Shown here: piece by piece, positions 1,399 through 21,053 of the stretch
How positions within the stretch are numbered: the first letter of the stretch is position 1
Layout: every line of letters begins with the position of its first letter
Source: a virus
IMG/VR virus record: IMGVR_UViG_3300044635_001006
Coordinates: 1-23,609 of that record
Strand: one strand, 5' to 3'
Length of the DNA: 23,609 bases
Translations under genes and position numbers: made by a program
The notes under the pieces: model-generated
What the model saw: only the letters and a program-made list of their open reading frames with translations
Databases searched by the model: none
Told to the model about the DNA's origin: nothing

Positions 1399-2424
1399 TC
1401 ACTCTACTTCGCGGAAGCTATCGTGCTCCCAAGACGTATCGTCCGCATCGTCAAACGGAAGCATCGGAACGTTTTTCTTCTCCTCTTGCAATCGCAAGAA
1501 ATTGCACCCGTGTTGCCAATATGATTCTTTCAATTCAACGCCCACAAACTTTCGGCCGCACCTAAGCGACCCGACGCCCTCGCTACCGACGCCACCGAAA
1601 GGCGAAAACACGACGTCGCCCGGAAGCGTCCACAGGTCAACGGCACGCTCTATCAACCCAAGCTGTAGCGGACAGATATGCTTCTCATCGTTTTCCGTTG
1701 TCGCCAGTTTGAAGTTTAGGACGTCCGTTTGATTGATATCCCACCAAACCGGCTCCGCGTATCTTCGCCAAATATCGATCGACGGATCGGCCGCGTTTTT
1801 CTTGCGTGAAAACGGCGACGGGTGATTATCGTTTGAGCTTCCGGCCTCACCAATGTATCGCGCGAATCCCTTCGGCCTAACGATGGGCTTGTCGGACATC
1901 AAGCCGCTTCCTTCGCTTGGCGGCTTTCGAAAGACGATCAGATAATCCGCCATACCTTGCCGCACCTGCGACGTATCACGCCTAACGGTCTTGTGGAGCA
2001 GTCCGTTATTGTTGGTCCGCTCGCGCTCCGTTACGGGGCATTTCCAGATCGTTACACGCGAATGAAAGACCCAACCAGCGGCCTCGAACTCCTGAATGCA
2101 AGCCCCAGGAAAGTCGATAAGCCCCGTCGTGCCGTAGACGTTCGCATATCGCGGTAAGTCCTTGCAATGGACCGCACAAAGGCGGCCCGGAACCGTCAGT
2201 CTGTAAAGCTCTTTAATCGCGAAAGCGTAGTGCCGAAAAAACTCTTCGTCGTTCGCTGCGTTGCCCATGTCGTTTTCTGAATCGCTGTAGATGTACAGCG
2301 AAGAAAACGGCGGCGAGTGAATGCAAAAGTCGATCGAGTTATCGGGCAAGTCCCGCATAAGGTCAACGCAATCGCCGTTGTAGAATGTCCAATCCGTTCC
2401 GTGCTGTTCGTTCATGCAACTCAT
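1399..2424 (-). CDS. DNA adenine/cytosine-N4 methyltransferase
   Basis: 341 residues. Motif IV, HSPPF (residues 36-40), a variant of the (D/S/N)PP(Y/F) catalytic motif, comes first. The AdoMet-binding motif I, FSPFGGVGSEG (about 273-283) followed by FVGVELKESY, is near the C-terminus. This is the beta-class order of amino-methyltransferases that make N6-methyladenine or N4-methylcytosine. The protein probably protects phage DNA from host restriction; no cognate nuclease is visible. The ATG at 2424 lies just after the helicase stop with AGG eight bases upstream; a GTG at 2433 in the same frame is the alternative. Target site cannot be told. The pair with the helicase suggests a modification or replication module. 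Confidence 0.88.
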   Translation of the reverse strand: MSCMNEQHGTDWTFYNGDCVDLMRDLPDNSIDFCIHSPPFSSLYIYSDSENDMGNAANDEEFFRHYAFAIKELYRLTVPGRLCAVHCKDLPRYANVYGTTGLIDFPGACIQEFEAAGWVFHSRVTIWKCPVTERERTNNNGLLHKTVRRDTSQVRQGMADYLIVFRKPPSEGSGLMSDKPIVRPKGFARYIGEAGSSNDNHPSPFSRKKNAADPSIDIWRRYAEPVWWDINQTDVLNFKLATTENDEKHICPLQLGLIERAVDLWTLPGDVVFSPFGGVGSEGVGSLRCGRKFVGVELKESYWQHGCNFLRLQEEKKNVPMLPFDDADDTSWEHDSFREVE

Positions 2425-2425
2425 T

Positions 2426-3823
2426 TCATACACCTGCCTTTGATTTTAAGAAACTAGGAATCGTCGGAACCGCCGACGCCGATAAACCGACCCTCATCAA
2501 CTCGGCTTGATTGCCAAGTCCGAACTGCCTAACAACTTCCGCCATCGACGCCTGCATCAAGCCGTGATCGGCACCCTTTCGGGCAATGCTCTTTTCGATG
2601 TTCGCATCCGCGTCGCTGCCGATGATATGAACCTTGACCGGTCGCGTTTGGCCAAATCTCCAAGACCTTCGAACGGCCTGATAATACTCTTCAAACGAAA
2701 ACGAAAGCGACGCAAACACTTGCGTATTGCAAACCTGAAAGTTCAGCCCGACGCCAGCGATAGACGGCTTTGTCACCAACACCGGAAACTGCCCTTCGGC
2801 AAATCCTAAGAGTAGATCCTGCTTTTTCTTCTCCGGCATCGACCCGCGAACCTCAACAGCCCCGTCGACATGCTTCATCAGTTCCGAAGATTCGTAATCG
2901 GTGTAACACCAAACGATTGCCGGCCGCTCTGACTCACGCACAATCTCCGCAACTCGCTTAGCTCGCTCGGTGTTGGTCCGCCGCTTTTCTTCGTGGATGT
3001 TCGTCGCCGAAATTCCTTCGACGTCGAATAGAAAGCCATCGGCGACGCCATCATATGCAACGCTAACAATGTGTCGCTCAACGGTCAGTGGTGGCAAGAT
3101 GTAGCCGTCGTCGCTAGCCCCAAGATCGGATGGACGCGAAAGACAAACCGCCCACGAGGTTACCCATCGCCAAAAGTCCTTTTGAGCGTGTTTCTTCAAG
3201 CGGTAGCCGCCTGCTTTCATCGTGTCGTTGATAAACCAACGCGAAAGCATTTCGTTCGACGGCATGACCCCAAGAAAATCGGCGTGGTTGCCCAGCTCTT
3301 TGTGGTCATTGGGCGCCGGTGTCGCTGTGCATGCCAAGCGGTATGGCGTTTCGCGATATGAGTCGATCAACTCTTGCTTGATCTTCCCGGTAAAATTTTT
3401 GAGGATCTGCGATTCGTCAAGCACAACCCCTGACCAAATCGAAGCGTCAAACTTGTGGAGCTTTTCGTAATTGATGAGGTTAATGCCCTCGACAATTTCA
3501 CTCTGCTCATCGACCACGGCAACGGGCGTTTCGATGCCAAACTTTTCGGCCTCTCGCTTTGTTTGGGCTCGAATGCCAACTGGCGTATGAATCACAACCG
3601 GCCGCTTCGATCGCTTGCAAACCGCGTCAGCCCAGGCTAACTGCTGAATCGTTTTCCCTAGGCCAGTATCTTCAAATAAAGCCGCTCGGCCACGCTGTAG
3701 CGACCACTGGACGCATTTGGCCTGCCAGCCCTTTAGGGCCTTCGGAAGCTCGCCAACCGCAACCTCAAAGCCCAGCGGCCTTGCCGATCGCACCTTCGAT
3801 CGGATGAATTCTTCGTAATCCAT
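2426..3823 (-). CDS. SNF2-family DNA helicase/translocase
   Basis: 465 residues. Motif I (Walker A) is DTGLGKT (52-58), motif II DESQ (136-139, SNF2-like variant of DEAH), motif III CTATPAPND (165-173), motif V GVGLNFQ and motif VI QAVRRSWRFGQ (382-392). The QxxRRxxRxGQ form is typical of SNF2-like phage helicases. It hydrolyses ATP and moves along double-stranded DNA, in phages usually for replication or recombination. The ATG at 3823 has only a weak GGTG Shine-Dalgarno. It is preceded by its own promoter and a structured leader ending in T5, so its expression is probably controlled there. The methyltransferase follows immediately. Confidence 0.9.
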   Translation of the reverse strand: MDYEEFIRSKVRSARPLGFEVAVGELPKALKGWQAKCVQWSLQRGRAALFEDTGLGKTIQQLAWADAVCKRSKRPVVIHTPVGIRAQTKREAEKFGIETPVAVVDEQSEIVEGINLINYEKLHKFDASIWSGVVLDESQILKNFTGKIKQELIDSYRETPYRLACTATPAPNDHKELGNHADFLGVMPSNEMLSRWFINDTMKAGGYRLKKHAQKDFWRWVTSWAVCLSRPSDLGASDDGYILPPLTVERHIVSVAYDGVADGFLFDVEGISATNIHEEKRRTNTERAKRVAEIVRESERPAIVWCYTDYESSELMKHVDGAVEVRGSMPEKKKQDLLLGFAEGQFPVLVTKPSIAGVGLNFQVCNTQVFASLSFSFEEYYQAVRRSWRFGQTRPVKVHIIGSDADANIEKSIARKGADHGLMQASMAEVVRQFGLGNQAELMRVGLSASAVPTIPSFLKSKAGV

Positions 3824-3929: not shown

Positions 3930-3957
3930 ATCTTAACGCATTGTCAACCGCTGACAA
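3930..3957 (-). promoter_or_regulatory. Promoter for the helicase leader, overlapping an inverted repeat
   Basis: Minus strand -35 TTGTCA (3957-3952), 16-bp spacer, -10 TAAGAT (3935-3930), which is 5/6 and 4/6 to consensus. The predicted start near 3923 falls just before strand A of the leader. The -35 box is one half of the inverted repeat TTGTCA-N5-TGACAA (3941-3957), a possible operator. Confidence 0.5.
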
Positions 3958-4660
3958 CTGCCAAATCCTCTACCGACTCAAAACCGCAAAGAAAACGCAT
4001 CCAATCGACTTCCCGATTGGACAAGTCAAACCATTCACCACGCACCCGCTTATCTGAAAAAATGCGATGCAAACGAGTCTCGACGTTTTTATGTGCTTGC
4101 TTTGTCGCAATCAGTCGCAGCCTTGGGTCTTCCGCTTGAAGCGTCTTTTCCCTTGCTTGTGGCGAATACGAAAATCCTATTTTTGTTAGTCCGTTTGTGT
4201 GCCTCATCAAATAGACGTATGGAGTTCGCCTATCTGTTCCGCATTGGCTTCTATCAAGCTGACTAGAAAAATAATCGACCTTTGGTTTTAGCGTTATGTC
4301 TTGCTTAATGATCTGTCGACGCAGCTCCGAAATCGTTTGACATGCTGCGTCAATCGCGTTGCCAAATTGCTCAACAGCAAACTCAAAAATCCTGGCCTGA
4401 TTGTTTGTCATGCTAAATTGTTCGCGACTATCGAAATCGATCATCGCTTTGACAATCTCGTGCACTCCGCAATATGGGCCGCTCTTGTATCGCCATCTCC
4501 TGTCAAGCCTCCAGAATTTTCGATCTCCAACGGCGACAACTACGCTGTGGTAGTCGTCGCCGAAATCTACACGCAAATCGTTCTTGATTAGCCTTGTTAG
4601 GTCTTCTGGTAGCTCGGTCATAACCCCAAGACCTGCAAGGCCTCCCTGTAGTCCGCTCAT
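3944..4660 (-). CDS. T5orf172/MUG113-type GIY-YIG-like protein
   Basis: 238 residues. The C-terminal half carries YVYLM (148-152), GLTKIGFS (157-164), a RE.TLQAEDP segment (170-179), E194 in VETRLH and RGEWF (207-211). These are hallmarks of the T5orf172/MUG113 branch of the GIY-YIG superfamily, whose members may nick DNA or act in DNA binding. The N-terminal ~130 residues have no recognisable domain. The start ATG at 4660 overlaps the upstream stop as ATGA. It lies upstream of the helicase, so a nucleic-acid function in replication or anti-host defence is plausible. Family call is good; activity is not established. Confidence 0.75.
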   Translation of the reverse strand: MSGLQGGLAGLGVMTELPEDLTRLIKNDLRVDFGDDYHSVVVAVGDRKFWRLDRRWRYKSGPYCGVHEIVKAMIDFDSREQFSMTNNQARIFEFAVEQFGNAIDAACQTISELRRQIIKQDITLKPKVDYFSSQLDRSQCGTDRRTPYVYLMRHTNGLTKIGFSYSPQAREKTLQAEDPRLRLIATKQAHKNVETRLHRIFSDKRVRGEWFDLSNREVDWMRFLCGFESVEDLAVVSG

Positions 4661-13769: not shown

Positions 13770-14927
13770 TTAGCCGTCATCGCGGCGGTCTGCAAAATAC
13801 TGTCGGATGTCCGTCGCCAGTTTCCCGAGCGGGTCGCGAAGCTCGTAGAGGCCAGAATTGGCAAGCGTCAAATCTCGCTGCGGGTCGAAATCGTGCCGCT
13901 GCAAAATCTCGTCGCGGCTCACGTACTGCCGGTGCTCTCGATCGCCGTGCCAAAGATGCCGCACGGTTCCCGGCACGAAAGCGACGGACGCCCGACCGAC
14001 CCGCTGAACGTAGGCTTGGCAATCGTCGCGAAGGTGCCGTGTCTGTCTCTCGACGTAGTTCGTTTTTGCACCGCTCACGGCCTCGAAAAACGTAGCGTCT
14101 CCGCCTCCGCAGATGTTCCGGTCATATACGCCACCGATCGACTTCAACCACGCTACGGACGCGATCCAAGCCCCTCCCGGTGCGGTGTTGTCAATCTTGC
14201 CACGACGCTGCCACGACGCCACGCTACCGGCTCGATCTTCGATCTTGTTGCCGTCGCGATCGTAATAAGCCACGACGTCGAATAACTGGACGCAATCGGC
14301 ACCGCGGTTGATTAGGTCGCATCCGATCTCTAACCAGTCGGCACGCTCAAAAAGTAAGTCGTGATCGATCCATGCAAAGTACCGAACGTGCGGCCCAACG
14401 CTCGCCAGTGCCAAGTTGATTAGCCGCTCTTTTTGCCAGATTGCTTGATCGCTCCGAATGTAAACCGAACCCGCGATCTCTTGGCCGCGGTTGCCCACTT
14501 CGTAGCATGTGTGTCGACGCCCAAGCTTCGCGGCCCAGTGTGCGTAGTTCGCCCGCAGTCGCTCGCGGTTGTGGGTGTTGAAATGATAGGTGACGATTTC
14601 GGTAGCGGTATCGACGTCAACGCGATCGCTGCACCCTTCGCAAGTCTGGCCGCGGTAAGTGCTTTTGATCAGCGGCCGCACTAAGCATCGTTCGTGCCGA
14701 TCGCAATGGTACAGCATTGCGTTACCCTCGCACCCGCAATCGATTTTGCGGATCTCTTTGCCGCGATGAATGCAGGGTAGTTCAACAGCCTTTGCCGATT
14801 GCAATGTTGAAGCATCGCAAGCCGCGGCCAACTCTTCGCCGCTGTACATCTTGCCGCAACTACAGCGCACCTTCGGGCCTTCGACGTAGCCGCCTTTTCG
14901 GCAATTAGGGCAGCGGAAATAAATCAT
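13770..14927 (-). CDS. Zinc-ribbon plus GT-A-like glycosyltransferase
   Basis: 385 residues. N-terminal CPNC (6-9) with CSC (22-24) forms one zinc ribbon. A second Cys/His cluster (C52, H54, C64, C66, C75, H78, C81, C96, C99) follows, a layout I recall from planctomycete proteins. From about residue 112 the rest looks like a GT-A glycosyltransferase, with WIDHD (186-190, DxD-like), GGGD (274-277) and HLWHG...R.Y (324-335). It probably transfers a sugar from a nucleotide-sugar to a virion or host-surface acceptor. The ATGA overlap with the tail gene upstream puts it in the late transcript. Catalysis is inferred. Confidence 0.75.
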   Translation of the reverse strand: MIYFRCPNCRKGGYVEGPKVRCSCGKMYSGEELAAACDASTLQSAKAVELPCIHRGKEIRKIDCGCEGNAMLYHCDRHERCLVRPLIKSTYRGQTCEGCSDRVDVDTATEIVTYHFNTHNRERLRANYAHWAAKLGRRHTCYEVGNRGQEIAGSVYIRSDQAIWQKERLINLALASVGPHVRYFAWIDHDLLFERADWLEIGCDLINRGADCVQLFDVVAYYDRDGNKIEDRAGSVASWQRRGKIDNTAPGGAWIASVAWLKSIGGVYDRNICGGGDATFFEAVSGAKTNYVERQTRHLRDDCQAYVQRVGRASVAFVPGTVRHLWHGDREHRQYVSRDEILQRHDFDPQRDLTLANSGLYELRDPLGKLATDIRQYFADRRDDG

Positions 14928-17743: not shown

Positions 17744-19413
17744 TGAATCGGTGCCGCCAGTTGTGGTGCCTTTGCTAATGCCGCGGCGATTTGTGCCCGG
17801 CTCGCTGCCTCTTCTCTCGCCCTCGACTCTTCAGCCATCTTTTGGGCAGACGCACTATTCGCCGCGTCTTGCGTATTACTTGCGATTTGCCTCAGTATTT
17901 CGTTGGTTTCGCTTGCTGGTCCCATCGTCAACAAACGGCCTGTCTGTGCTTGCAACGCGCTGGCCGCCGCAAGCTGATTCGATGATTTGCCTTGCTCGTT
18001 CGATCCTGCCGCTGTCCCGTCTTGGCCTGTCATCTTCAGCGCGATCTGTTCGGCTGGCCCGCTAGTCGCTTCGTCAAGCCCAATCAGTCGACCAGAAAGC
18101 TTCGTGTTGAACTCTTCGGCAAGGTTAGTGCCAAGCTTCCCGATTCTTGCTTGTAGCTCTTGCTCTCGATCGGTTATTGCCCTTGCTGCGATCTCTGGCA
18201 ATGCTTCGGCGGTCGCCGTAAAGCCATCCAATAGACTACCCGAAGCTACTTGACCGATGTCCGCGGCAAGTTGATCGAACCCGCCTGACATGCCGCTAGA
18301 AACGAAATCCCAAATTCGCATGATGATGCGGCCGATCTTGTCGCCCAGGTTGCTGGCGATCGTGACAACGGCGTTAAAAGCGTCGGCCATTAGCTTTGTG
18401 AAGTTATCCGCAAACCAAGCAGCGTAAGCCGGAATCTCGACGGTAAAAGCGTGCTTTGTTCCTTCGACAAGGCGGATCAATTGCAATTCCGTAGAATCGA
18501 CCGCCATTTCCCAGACGGTTCCGAGATTACCGACGATCACCTCGATCATCGTGATCTGCGCGATCGCTCCGTTGATCGCCGCAACCACTTTTGACTTAAA
18601 GTAATCCATCCATTCGCCGATTGACTGGGTGATCGGCCCGATCGACTCAAGAGCCGGAAGCATCACTTCGGTTATCTTTTCGGCAGCAAACCCGATTCCG
18701 TCTAGTGCAAGCTTCCTAAATGGCGATAGGGCCTCGCCTAGCACCTCCATCATATTTCCGACTTTGTTCTGCATCCGCTGATAGGCATCGGCAGCACTAT
18801 CGGCCCTGGCCTCTTTTTGTGCCATCCCGTTATTCGCCAACTGCATCACGGCGGCTAGCTTTTCTTCATTCGTCGCCATGTCTTTAAGCGACGGAATTAA
18901 GCGGTTAAACGAATCAAAATTACCCTCGGTTGCTAGTCGTGCTTTTTTTAACGCATCATCAAGCCCGATGCCCATCGCCTCCGATAACCCGATCGCGGCC
19001 TGTGCTACGTCGTCAATCTGTTCGTTTTCAACGCCAAGCATCGCCGCCGATTTCATCATCTCGGCAATCGTTTCCGCTTCGATGTTCGTTCGACGCTCAA
19101 GCGAATCGGCAAGTTCAATGTTCTTTTGAACGGCTTCGTCGGTAGTGCCTCCGTTGGCCTCCATTGCTTGCCGAAGTGCTCGATTAGCCTCCGTAGCCTT
19201 GTCGTAATCAGACACACCCGCGGAGATTAAGCTGCCTAGCCTTTCAATTCCGCGAAGTGCCGTGTTGATCGTTCCCGATACGAGCGTGAAACCGGCAGCG
19301 GTTTTGATGATTGAACCAAACGACATTTCGAGACGCGACAATCCGGCGACGGTCGAGTTGATCGCCTTCGCCGTTTCGTTTTTACCGCCAATCGCGAACT
19401 CAACGTCTGGCAT
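17740..19413 (-). CDS. Tail tape measure protein
   Basis: 557 residues, long and mostly helical, with hydrophobic stretches (IIKTAAGFTLVSGTINTAL near 35-53 and parts of 280-390), Ala/Gln/Glu-rich ends and coiled-coil repeats. The N-terminal FAIGGKNETAKAINSTV and the TEGNFDSFNRLIPSL segment are usual in phage tape measures. It sets tail length and passes into the host during DNA entry; at about 0.15 nm per residue it would give a tail near 84 nm. It follows the chaperone pair, and its start overlaps the frameshifted frame by 14 bp. Confidence 0.88.
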   Translation of the reverse strand: MPDVEFAIGGKNETAKAINSTVAGLSRLEMSFGSIIKTAAGFTLVSGTINTALRGIERLGSLISAGVSDYDKATEANRALRQAMEANGGTTDEAVQKNIELADSLERRTNIEAETIAEMMKSAAMLGVENEQIDDVAQAAIGLSEAMGIGLDDALKKARLATEGNFDSFNRLIPSLKDMATNEEKLAAVMQLANNGMAQKEARADSAADAYQRMQNKVGNMMEVLGEALSPFRKLALDGIGFAAEKITEVMLPALESIGPITQSIGEWMDYFKSKVVAAINGAIAQITMIEVIVGNLGTVWEMAVDSTELQLIRLVEGTKHAFTVEIPAYAAWFADNFTKLMADAFNAVVTIASNLGDKIGRIIMRIWDFVSSGMSGGFDQLAADIGQVASGSLLDGFTATAEALPEIAARAITDREQELQARIGKLGTNLAEEFNTKLSGRLIGLDEATSGPAEQIALKMTGQDGTAAGSNEQGKSSNQLAAASALQAQTGRLLTMGPASETNEILRQIASNTQDAANSASAQKMAEESRAREEAASRAQIAAALAKAPQLAAPIQ

Positions 19414-20103
19414 ATCGCTTTCGCTCTCGCTCTACTTGCTCGATCTGAATTGCGTTTTCTTCGTTGTTCAGAATTCGCCGAAGCTCAAACCACCACGCCG
19501 ACTGATCAAGTAATCCGCCGGTCTGCGGTAGCACGCCATCAACACAAGCCGCCGAGACGTTTATTTGGTCGATCATGTCGCGACCAATAAACGACGACGG
19601 ACATTCCTTTAGTTCAAAGTATCCACCTCGACACCATTCACAACCATGCCCAGCACAGGCGGGGCACTCAATTTCAATTCTCTGCTGTTCGTCGAAAAGC
19701 TCGTTGCATCGCCCGCGACATGATTTGCAAAGCTCGCCGCAGCGGACGTAGGCGGCGATGCGGATTTTTTTAGCTCGTCACCGCTTGCCGTGAACGTCGT
19801 GACAATCGCGTCGATAATCTCGTTAATTTCGTTAATTGTCAAAAGGTCTTCGAGTGCTTCGCGACTAAACTCACGCCCGAAGTTCTCCCATCCGCTTAGG
19901 CAAACCATTACGGCATCGATCGCCGCATTAAGCTTGCCCTCTGCGTCTTCTGTCTTCATTGACGACAACGCCTTGGAAAGTTGCTTTTGCTTACCAAGCG
20001 TTAGCACGCTGCCAATCAGTCGCGGCTGAATGTCTCGCGGCTTATCGGCGTCGCTCTTGAGTACGAAGACGATCCTGTCGTCACGATCCAAACTTTTTGG
20101 CAT
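19400..20103 (-). CDS. Tail assembly chaperone, long form made by -1 frameshift
   Basis: Same start as the short form. Codons 111-113 (CTA AAA AAA) place A-AAA-AAA (19771-19765) in perfect slippery register. A -1 slip leads into an open frame of 121 codons ending at 19400, for 234 residues. The extension has C-GEL-C-KS-C-RGR-C, then CPACAGHGCEWCRGG, a DnaJ-like zinc-finger pattern, and a helical end with SAWWFELRRILNNEENA and EQVERERKRYARR. This matches lambda gpG/gpGT in place and logic: it recruits the tape measure and tube subunits. I did not find an independent start giving the second frame, and frameshifting is predicted from sequence. Confidence 0.78.
19609..20103 (-). CDS. Tail assembly chaperone, short form (gpG-like)
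   Basis: 164 residues between the tail tube and tape measure genes. N-terminal RDDRIVFVLKSDAD and RLIGSVLTLGKQKQLSKAL, then acidic helices (REALEDLLTINEINEIID) typical of small phage tail chaperones. The zero-frame tail after residue 113 is low-complexity (SASPPTSAAASF...). The ATG at 20103 touches the tail tube stop (overlap of one base). It is absent from mature tails in relatives. Expression of the two forms in a fixed ratio is expected from the slip site at 19765-19771. Confidence 0.8.
   Translation of the reverse strand: MPKSLDRDDRIVFVLKSDADKPRDIQPRLIGSVLTLGKQKQLSKALSSMKTEDAEGKLNAAIDAVMVCLSGWENFGREFSREALEDLLTINEINEIIDAIVTTFTASGDELKKSASPPTSAAASFANHVAGDATSFSTNSRELKLSAPPVLGMVVNGVEVDTLN
19765..19771 (-). 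promoter_or_regulatory. Programmed -1 frameshift slippery site A AAA AAA
   Basis: Seven A on the minus strand are read CTA AAA AAA in the zero frame, so both tRNAs can re-pair after a -1 slip. The -1 frame stays open for 121 codons beyond it. C+G-rich sequence follows; I could not define a specific downstream stem. Confidence 0.75.
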
Positions 20104-21053
20104 TATGGTGTTGCATCGACGAATTGAATCGTCAATTCCTCATCGTTTGTGGTTCCGTTTTTGTTGCACTGCCAAGTTATGTCATCGGTCACAATGTCGT
20201 TTCGGTTGCCTTGGGCAATCGTCTGGATTTGTGCTTTCGGCGCTAAAAAGATAATCGTTCCCGATCCGGCAGTCGGCAGTTTGTATTCTACCTCATATTC
20301 GGTCGATGCCGTTAGTGCCAAATATCGATCAAGCGACGCCACCAAAACGGCTTCGGGATCTGCCGTGATAACCGGCTGTCTGTTCGTCACGATCGCCGAA
20401 GCGTAGCCGCTTGCATGTGTTGTACATTCCCGCATCACAACAGTATTGCCGGCGTCAATCGTTGCCGACGCGACGCAAATGTTTGCGTTGTTGAGTTGGA
20501 ATGTATCGCCCGCACATCGGCTCGGCAGGTCGGTCGGATAGGTCGGCGCGATGATCGTCGAATCCGTCTCCGCTTCCCACTTGCCGCTGAATGTCCAGTT
20601 GATCCGCCCGAGGTCGCCTGTCGGCAAGTCGATCGAAAACGTGCCCATGCAGCCGGATAGCTTGCGATACTTTCCATCGACAAAGCCGCCAATTGTGATC
20701 GTTCGCGGGTCGCTACTGGTGGTCCCAGGTTTAGCAGTCTTCGGCTTGAACGTGCCTGACGTGTTAACCCAACCGCAAGCCGGAAGGAGTACCGTAGCCC
20801 ACGGCGGAAGCGATCCACTGTCACCGCCCCAGTAAATGTCAGTTGAAAACGTCGCCGTTCCCTGCCGACCGGCTGCGATTGCCGCCAAGTAGTTAAACGC
20901 CCCTTGGCCCTCTCGCTGCGTCTTCGAAATGTTGGGCTGAATTAGCAAATCGTAAACGTTGAACACGCCCTCGCTTGCGGTCAGCGTTTCGGCAGTGCCT
21001 ACGGTTGCTTCGGCTTTGGCAGCGAATACTGTGCGGCGTCTGAGTAACGACAT
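20103..21053 (-). CDS. Tail tube (major tail) protein
   Basis: 316 residues. The start (RRRTVFAAKAEATVGTAETL), the middle (RQGTATFSTDIYWGGDSGSLP, and PPWATVLLPACGW) and LTASTEYEVEYKLP are the pattern of siphophage tail tube proteins: a beta-sandwich that stacks as hexameric rings. It has four cysteines. The gene precedes the chaperone pair, the canonical order. The ATG at 21053 is 3 bp after the upstream stop. Confidence 0.82.
   Translation of the reverse strand: MSLLRRRTVFAAKAEATVGTAETLTASEGVFNVYDLLIQPNISKTQREGQGAFNYLAAIAAGRQGTATFSTDIYWGGDSGSLPPWATVLLPACGWVNTSGTFKPKTAKPGTTSSDPRTITIGGFVDGKYRKLSGCMGTFSIDLPTGDLGRINWTFSGKWEAETDSTIIAPTYPTDLPSRCAGDTFQLNNANICVASATIDAGNTVVMRECTTHASGYASAIVTNRQPVITADPEAVLVASLDRYLALTASTEYEVEYKLPTAGSGTIIFLAPKAQIQTIAQGNRNDIVTDDITWQCNKNGTTNDEELTIQFVDATP

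Follow-up and report, generated by a model that had tools for sequence, protein, structure and literature searches.

A -1 reading frame between the tail tube and tape measure genes

The window that we analysed, a virus record of 23,609 bases taken as a whole, carries on its minus strand the order tail tube, G, tape measure. The tail tube gene (21053-20103) matches Pfam Phage_tube_2 (E = 8e-13). It is followed by G (20103-19609), an open reading frame of 164 aa in the 0 frame, which we assign as the short form of a tail assembly chaperone; its match to Pfam Phage_TAC_4 (PF08748; E = 4e-4, 21.0 bits) falls just under the curated cut-off of 21.1, and the G proteins of other family members gave no TAC match in Pfam. 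The tape measure gene (19413-17740) was recognized through the PHROG family tail length tape measure (1e-4). Its product has just 557 aa, compared with 518-617 aa among the complete relative copies listed, which suggests a short tail if the phage is siphovirus-like. Elsewhere in the window, a DNA methylase (N6_N4_Mtase) gene overlaps an SNF2-type helicase gene (1399-3823), a protein with a T5orf172/MUG113 (GIY-YIG-like) domain is encoded at 3944-4660, and a 385-aa protein with a zinc-ribbon-like N-terminal CPNC...CSCG, which lacks a Pfam match, is encoded at 13770-14927.

Examination of G confirmed the slippery heptamer A-AAA-AAA that the first-pass annotation had placed at codons 111-113, on the minus strand at 19771-19765 and in the register X-XXY-YYZ. 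The -1 frame, here called T, then stays open for 121 residues (minus strand, 19403-19765; IRIAAYVRCG...ERKRYARR) and reaches a TGA stop at 19402-19400, within the tape measure gene as had also been proposed, so that the end of T overlaps the tape measure start at 19413 by 14 nt. The predicted G-T fusion has 234 aa. The plausible genes of the window contain nine in-register slippery heptamers in all, and the -1 frame runs for 123 codons at this one vs. 3-78 codons at the other eight.

This arrangement resembles that of gpG/gpGT of phage lambda, which likewise lies between the tube and tape measure genes, with a -1 slip close to the end of G. In lambda and in most relatives of the window alike, the 0-frame product ends shortly past the slip site; the heptamers themselves differ, being G-GGA-AAG in lambda and A-AAA-AAA in the window. 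The order tube, G, T, tape measure is preserved across the relatives.

Conservation of the slip site and of the -1 frame in close relatives

Scans of IMG/VR returned up to 194 contigs with a close relative of T (165 in one scan and 194 in another), and those kept share 50-100% identity. In all 60 distinct close sequences, T begins at an in-register A-AAA-AAA or A-AAA-AAG. The 0 frame reaches a stop 4-25 codons past the slip site in most of them and after 53 codons in the clade of the window and its sister. We compared selection on the three frames past the slip site across the close relatives, and pN/pS was 0.24 in the T (-1) frame, 1.23 in the 0 frame, and 1.91 in the third frame, indicating that the -1 frame is conserved as coding sequence. 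The conservation of the slip site, together with purifying selection on the -1 frame solely, points to a programmed frameshift of the gpG/gpGT type. The frameshifted tail chaperone put forward in the first-pass annotation is thus supported by conservation of the slip site, selection on the -1 frame, and gene position, and the longer second protein is very probably made by ribosomes that slip back one base at this sequence.

We also looked for an RNA element downstream of the slip site that might stimulate frameshifting, and the predicted folds were no stronger than those of shuffled sequences. A 7-bp stem (19758-19752 with 19740-19734) was paired in 87.3% of cells, but since the shuffles reach 87.0%, we attribute this pairing to coding conservation; its covariation was also not above that of the shuffles.

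The T family in distant genomes and isolated phages

No match to the T of the window was obtained by direct tblastn in known phages, and its relatives there were reached only via intermediates. A profile of the close T sequences led to bacterial contigs of Nitrospinaceae and Schekmanbacteria, these to further genomes, and single distant queries from those to isolated phages: Alteromonas phage P24, Agrobacterium phage JP1, Rhodobacter phages RcZahn and RcTiptonus, and Rhizobium phages RHph_TM16, RHph_I4, and L338C. The plasmids that we searched gave no match. Two members, L082 and L083, scored E ~1e-33 against the profile, a value that we discounted because both rows sat inside the profile; scans with either T as a single query gave no match. 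When alignments of the close and the distant T sequences were made independently and compared, hhalign joined them with E = 6.6e-13 and a probability of 97.8. The match begins at residue 32, in agreement with the four cysteines C36, C39, C44, and C57 discussed below. In a tree of the family, the close sequences fall on one side of a long branch with support of 100/100.

At the homologous place, a slip heptamer stands in register in each of the 15 distant members (A-AAA-AAC in 12, A-AAA-AAG in one, and G-GGA-AAC in two). An independent new scan added five more distant lineages, all five with A-AAA-AAC in register, bringing the distant total to 20 out of 20. The conservation of the slip site that the first-pass annotation had proposed to check was therefore seen in both the close and the distant set. 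The two G-GGA-AAC sites belong to Rhizobium phages (L170 and L171, positions 1501-1507 of each), in which this sequence replaces A-AAA-AAN, a swap of slip-site type inside the T family.

These sequences also bear on whether the fusion could arise by transcriptional slippage on the A run rather than by ribosomal slippage. Runs of seven to nine A residues are found in the close family, with nine in 26 of the 60 sequences, as such a mechanism would favor, but the run in the window has only seven, and the distant members carry A6C, A6G, or GGGAAAC at the same place. These sequences are ribosomal -1 sites and are poor substrates for RNA polymerase slippage. Because the distant members have A6C and GGGAAAC, we consider transcriptional slippage highly unlikely.

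In the records viewed for the isolated phages, T is nowhere annotated as a frameshift product, being listed as a hypothetical protein or as a separate gene. In P24 (L164), T is unannotated, and in JP1 (L165), RcTiptonus, and the Rhizobium phages (L168-L171) it is annotated as a separate gene. The annotated starts sit downstream of the slip site, and the separate genes of L165 and L168-L171 therefore probably lack the true N-terminal part of T. In RcZahn, an in-register A-AAA-AAC occurs at the end of gp27 (L166, 2830-2836) and leads into gp28; the genome paper reports that a clear frameshift sequence was not found (PMC8601537).

Such records raise the alternative that T is a separate protein translated from its own start, perhaps by coupled re-initiation, and that the slip site is incidental. 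A start codon does lie just past the slip site in some distant members, as with the ATG of the separately annotated gene in RcZahn, and GTG or TTG occurs at codons 8-9 in 27 of the 60 close sequences. However, conserved KK-R-A residues lie ahead of those start codons, and in the remaining 33 of 60 close sequences, as in the window itself, the stretch of the T frame from the upstream stop to C11 is free of ATG, GTG, and TTG. The TAA that closes the T frame upstream overlaps the heptamer in many close sequences. Given that the heptamer is also in register across all 80 sequences or lineages, we regard an independent start for T as very improbable. The first-pass annotation had named relatives without the slip site, or with the cysteine-rich part behind its own start, as findings that would speak against its proposal; we looked for both, and neither refuted the frameshift in favor of which the evidence above argues.

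A four-cysteine set shared by the whole family

The T extension of the window is cysteine-rich, as had been noted, although the count is ten rather than the "up to nine" given earlier; the close family conserves nine of them. Numbering T from the first K of KK, we found C36, C39, C44, and C57 (19601-19666, minus strand; CPACAGHGCEWC) in all 52 members compared, 37 of them close and 15 distant, which bears out the expectation that cysteines would be conserved in relatives. A second group, C11, C15, C18, and C22 (19706-19741, minus strand) with C47 (19631-19633), is present in 36-37 of the 37 close members and in none of the 15 distant ones. The T proteins of P24, JP1, RcZahn, RcTiptonus, and the Rhizobium phages are thus homologous to that of the window and, like it, have the four-cysteine set and an in-register slip site, but they lack C11, C15, C18, C22, and C47. 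Distant rows have a gap of ~20 residues around C11-C22, and an earlier alignment paired the CxxC differently, so the correspondence of N-terminal residues is partly a matter of alignment choice. The proline that follows the last cysteine is missing from a single distant lineage (L296).

The four shared cysteines probably hold a structural zinc, and the clade-specific C11, C15, C18, C22, and C47 suggest a second site. The simplest reading is that a single ancestral metal site was present and that more cysteines were added later in the clade of the window; loss of cysteines in the distant set is possible instead, as the tree and the alignment are without an outgroup.

T is covered by no family at threshold in Pfam, PHROG, or NCBIfam. 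The profile of PF08809 (DUF1799), considered as a possible cognate T, matched nowhere, the controls included. An AF2 model had low confidence when built from 27 close sequences (pLDDT 54.5), and one built from 39 rows reached a moderate confidence, with pLDDT 77.8 and pTM 0.70 for the best of five. The latter places a helix at residues 87-122, with pLDDT of 83-91 over residues 91-120. This C-terminal helix and the LPxxGGLLDQ motif that precedes it (19403-19531, minus strand) are kept in both close and distant members. Searches with the model by Foldseek against the PDB and viral models found no fold at E <= 0.001, and the best Z in VIA was 2.5. The best PDB sequence match, which spans a short stretch of 31 residues in phenylalanyl-tRNA synthetase alpha (E = 0.002), we take to reflect a similar knuckle and not kinship. 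Related cysteine strings occur in Anti-TRAP (PF15777), a small zinc protein, with a best E of 0.012 among the members; that match is far under the cut-off, and the context of Anti-TRAP is unrelated.

The number and spacing of cysteines alone do not distinguish zinc from iron, and the residues could instead serve as a redox switch or as ligands of an iron-sulfur cluster. The weak profile matches nevertheless are to zinc proteins (L37Ae and Anti-TRAP) and to no Fe-S family, and CxxC-bearing hairpins are usual in zinc knuckles. An iron-sulfur or redox function is on this evidence unlikely, and we favor structural zinc.

The first-pass annotation had read the cysteines as a DnaJ-type zinc finger that may add a chaperone-like grip on the tape measure protein, which would then be held as an unfolded client. 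The likeness of T to the DnaJ central domain (PF00684) consists of one CxxCxGxG-like string, locally CPxCxGxGCxxCxxG, and the best DnaJ matches were weak (E = 1.9 in NCBIfam and E = 2.4 for PDB entry 1exk). In contrast to the four repeats of DnaJ, T has a single unit, most of whose pattern is missing in the distant relatives, including C47 in all of them. In a Pfam search of 27 members with E allowed up to 5, PF00684 was not among the matches. On these match results we rejected the DnaJ zinc finger as a description of T, and the shared C36, C39, C44, and C57 deviate from its pattern. Nor do we favor a grip on the tape measure by T, which would go against what is described for lambda, where the tape measure is bound by G and the partner of T is the tube protein (PMC5009743). 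We therefore consider the DnaJ-type client grip very unlikely, and on the analogy with lambda it is more likely that the cysteines of T shape a domain that recruits tube subunits.

Proposed roles of G and T

In the scheme that we propose, most ribosomes would complete G (164 aa), and a minority would slip by -1 on A-AAA-AAA to produce G-T (234 aa). If the roles follow the lambda example, G would coat the tape measure protein, and T, tethered via its G half, would recruit subunits of the tail tube, for which the product of 20103-21053 is the likely partner. T itself would consist of the four-cysteine site with a probable structural zinc, then the GGLLDQ turn, and then the long helix, and the clade of the window would have gained further cysteines, probably forming a second zinc site. 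A comparison of the T family with lambda T by hhalign gave no detectable similarity (E = 0.74 and a probability of 0.1 over 12 columns), although a remote homology may escape a comparison that used a single lambda sequence, and lambda T, unlike T of the window family, has no cysteine. The transfer of roles thus rests on position and mode of expression, and because both are as in lambda, the same division of labor between G and T is most likely here. Taken as a whole, the explanation of a gpG/gpGT-type chaperone that yields G-T by a -1 slip, with T forming a distinct four-cysteine family that probably binds zinc, is in our view likely to be correct.

The -1 slip mechanism is already well known in tailed phages, but the cysteine-bearing T belongs to a family without a name, which occurs in many phages. 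None of the papers found in an open-access library describes a T domain with zinc or cysteines. A more far-reaching possibility, which we hold only tentatively, is that T represents an undescribed and widespread metal-binding family made solely by frameshifting, in which the metal site would be the tube-recruiting surface and tail assembly would depend on zinc or redox state. The T profile may serve as a search tool for unannotated frameshifts, such as the A-AAA-AAC of RcZahn. How the T domains of tail chaperones work is poorly understood, and a family with four strictly conserved cysteines would offer a compact system in which the recruitment of tube subunits by T can be tested.
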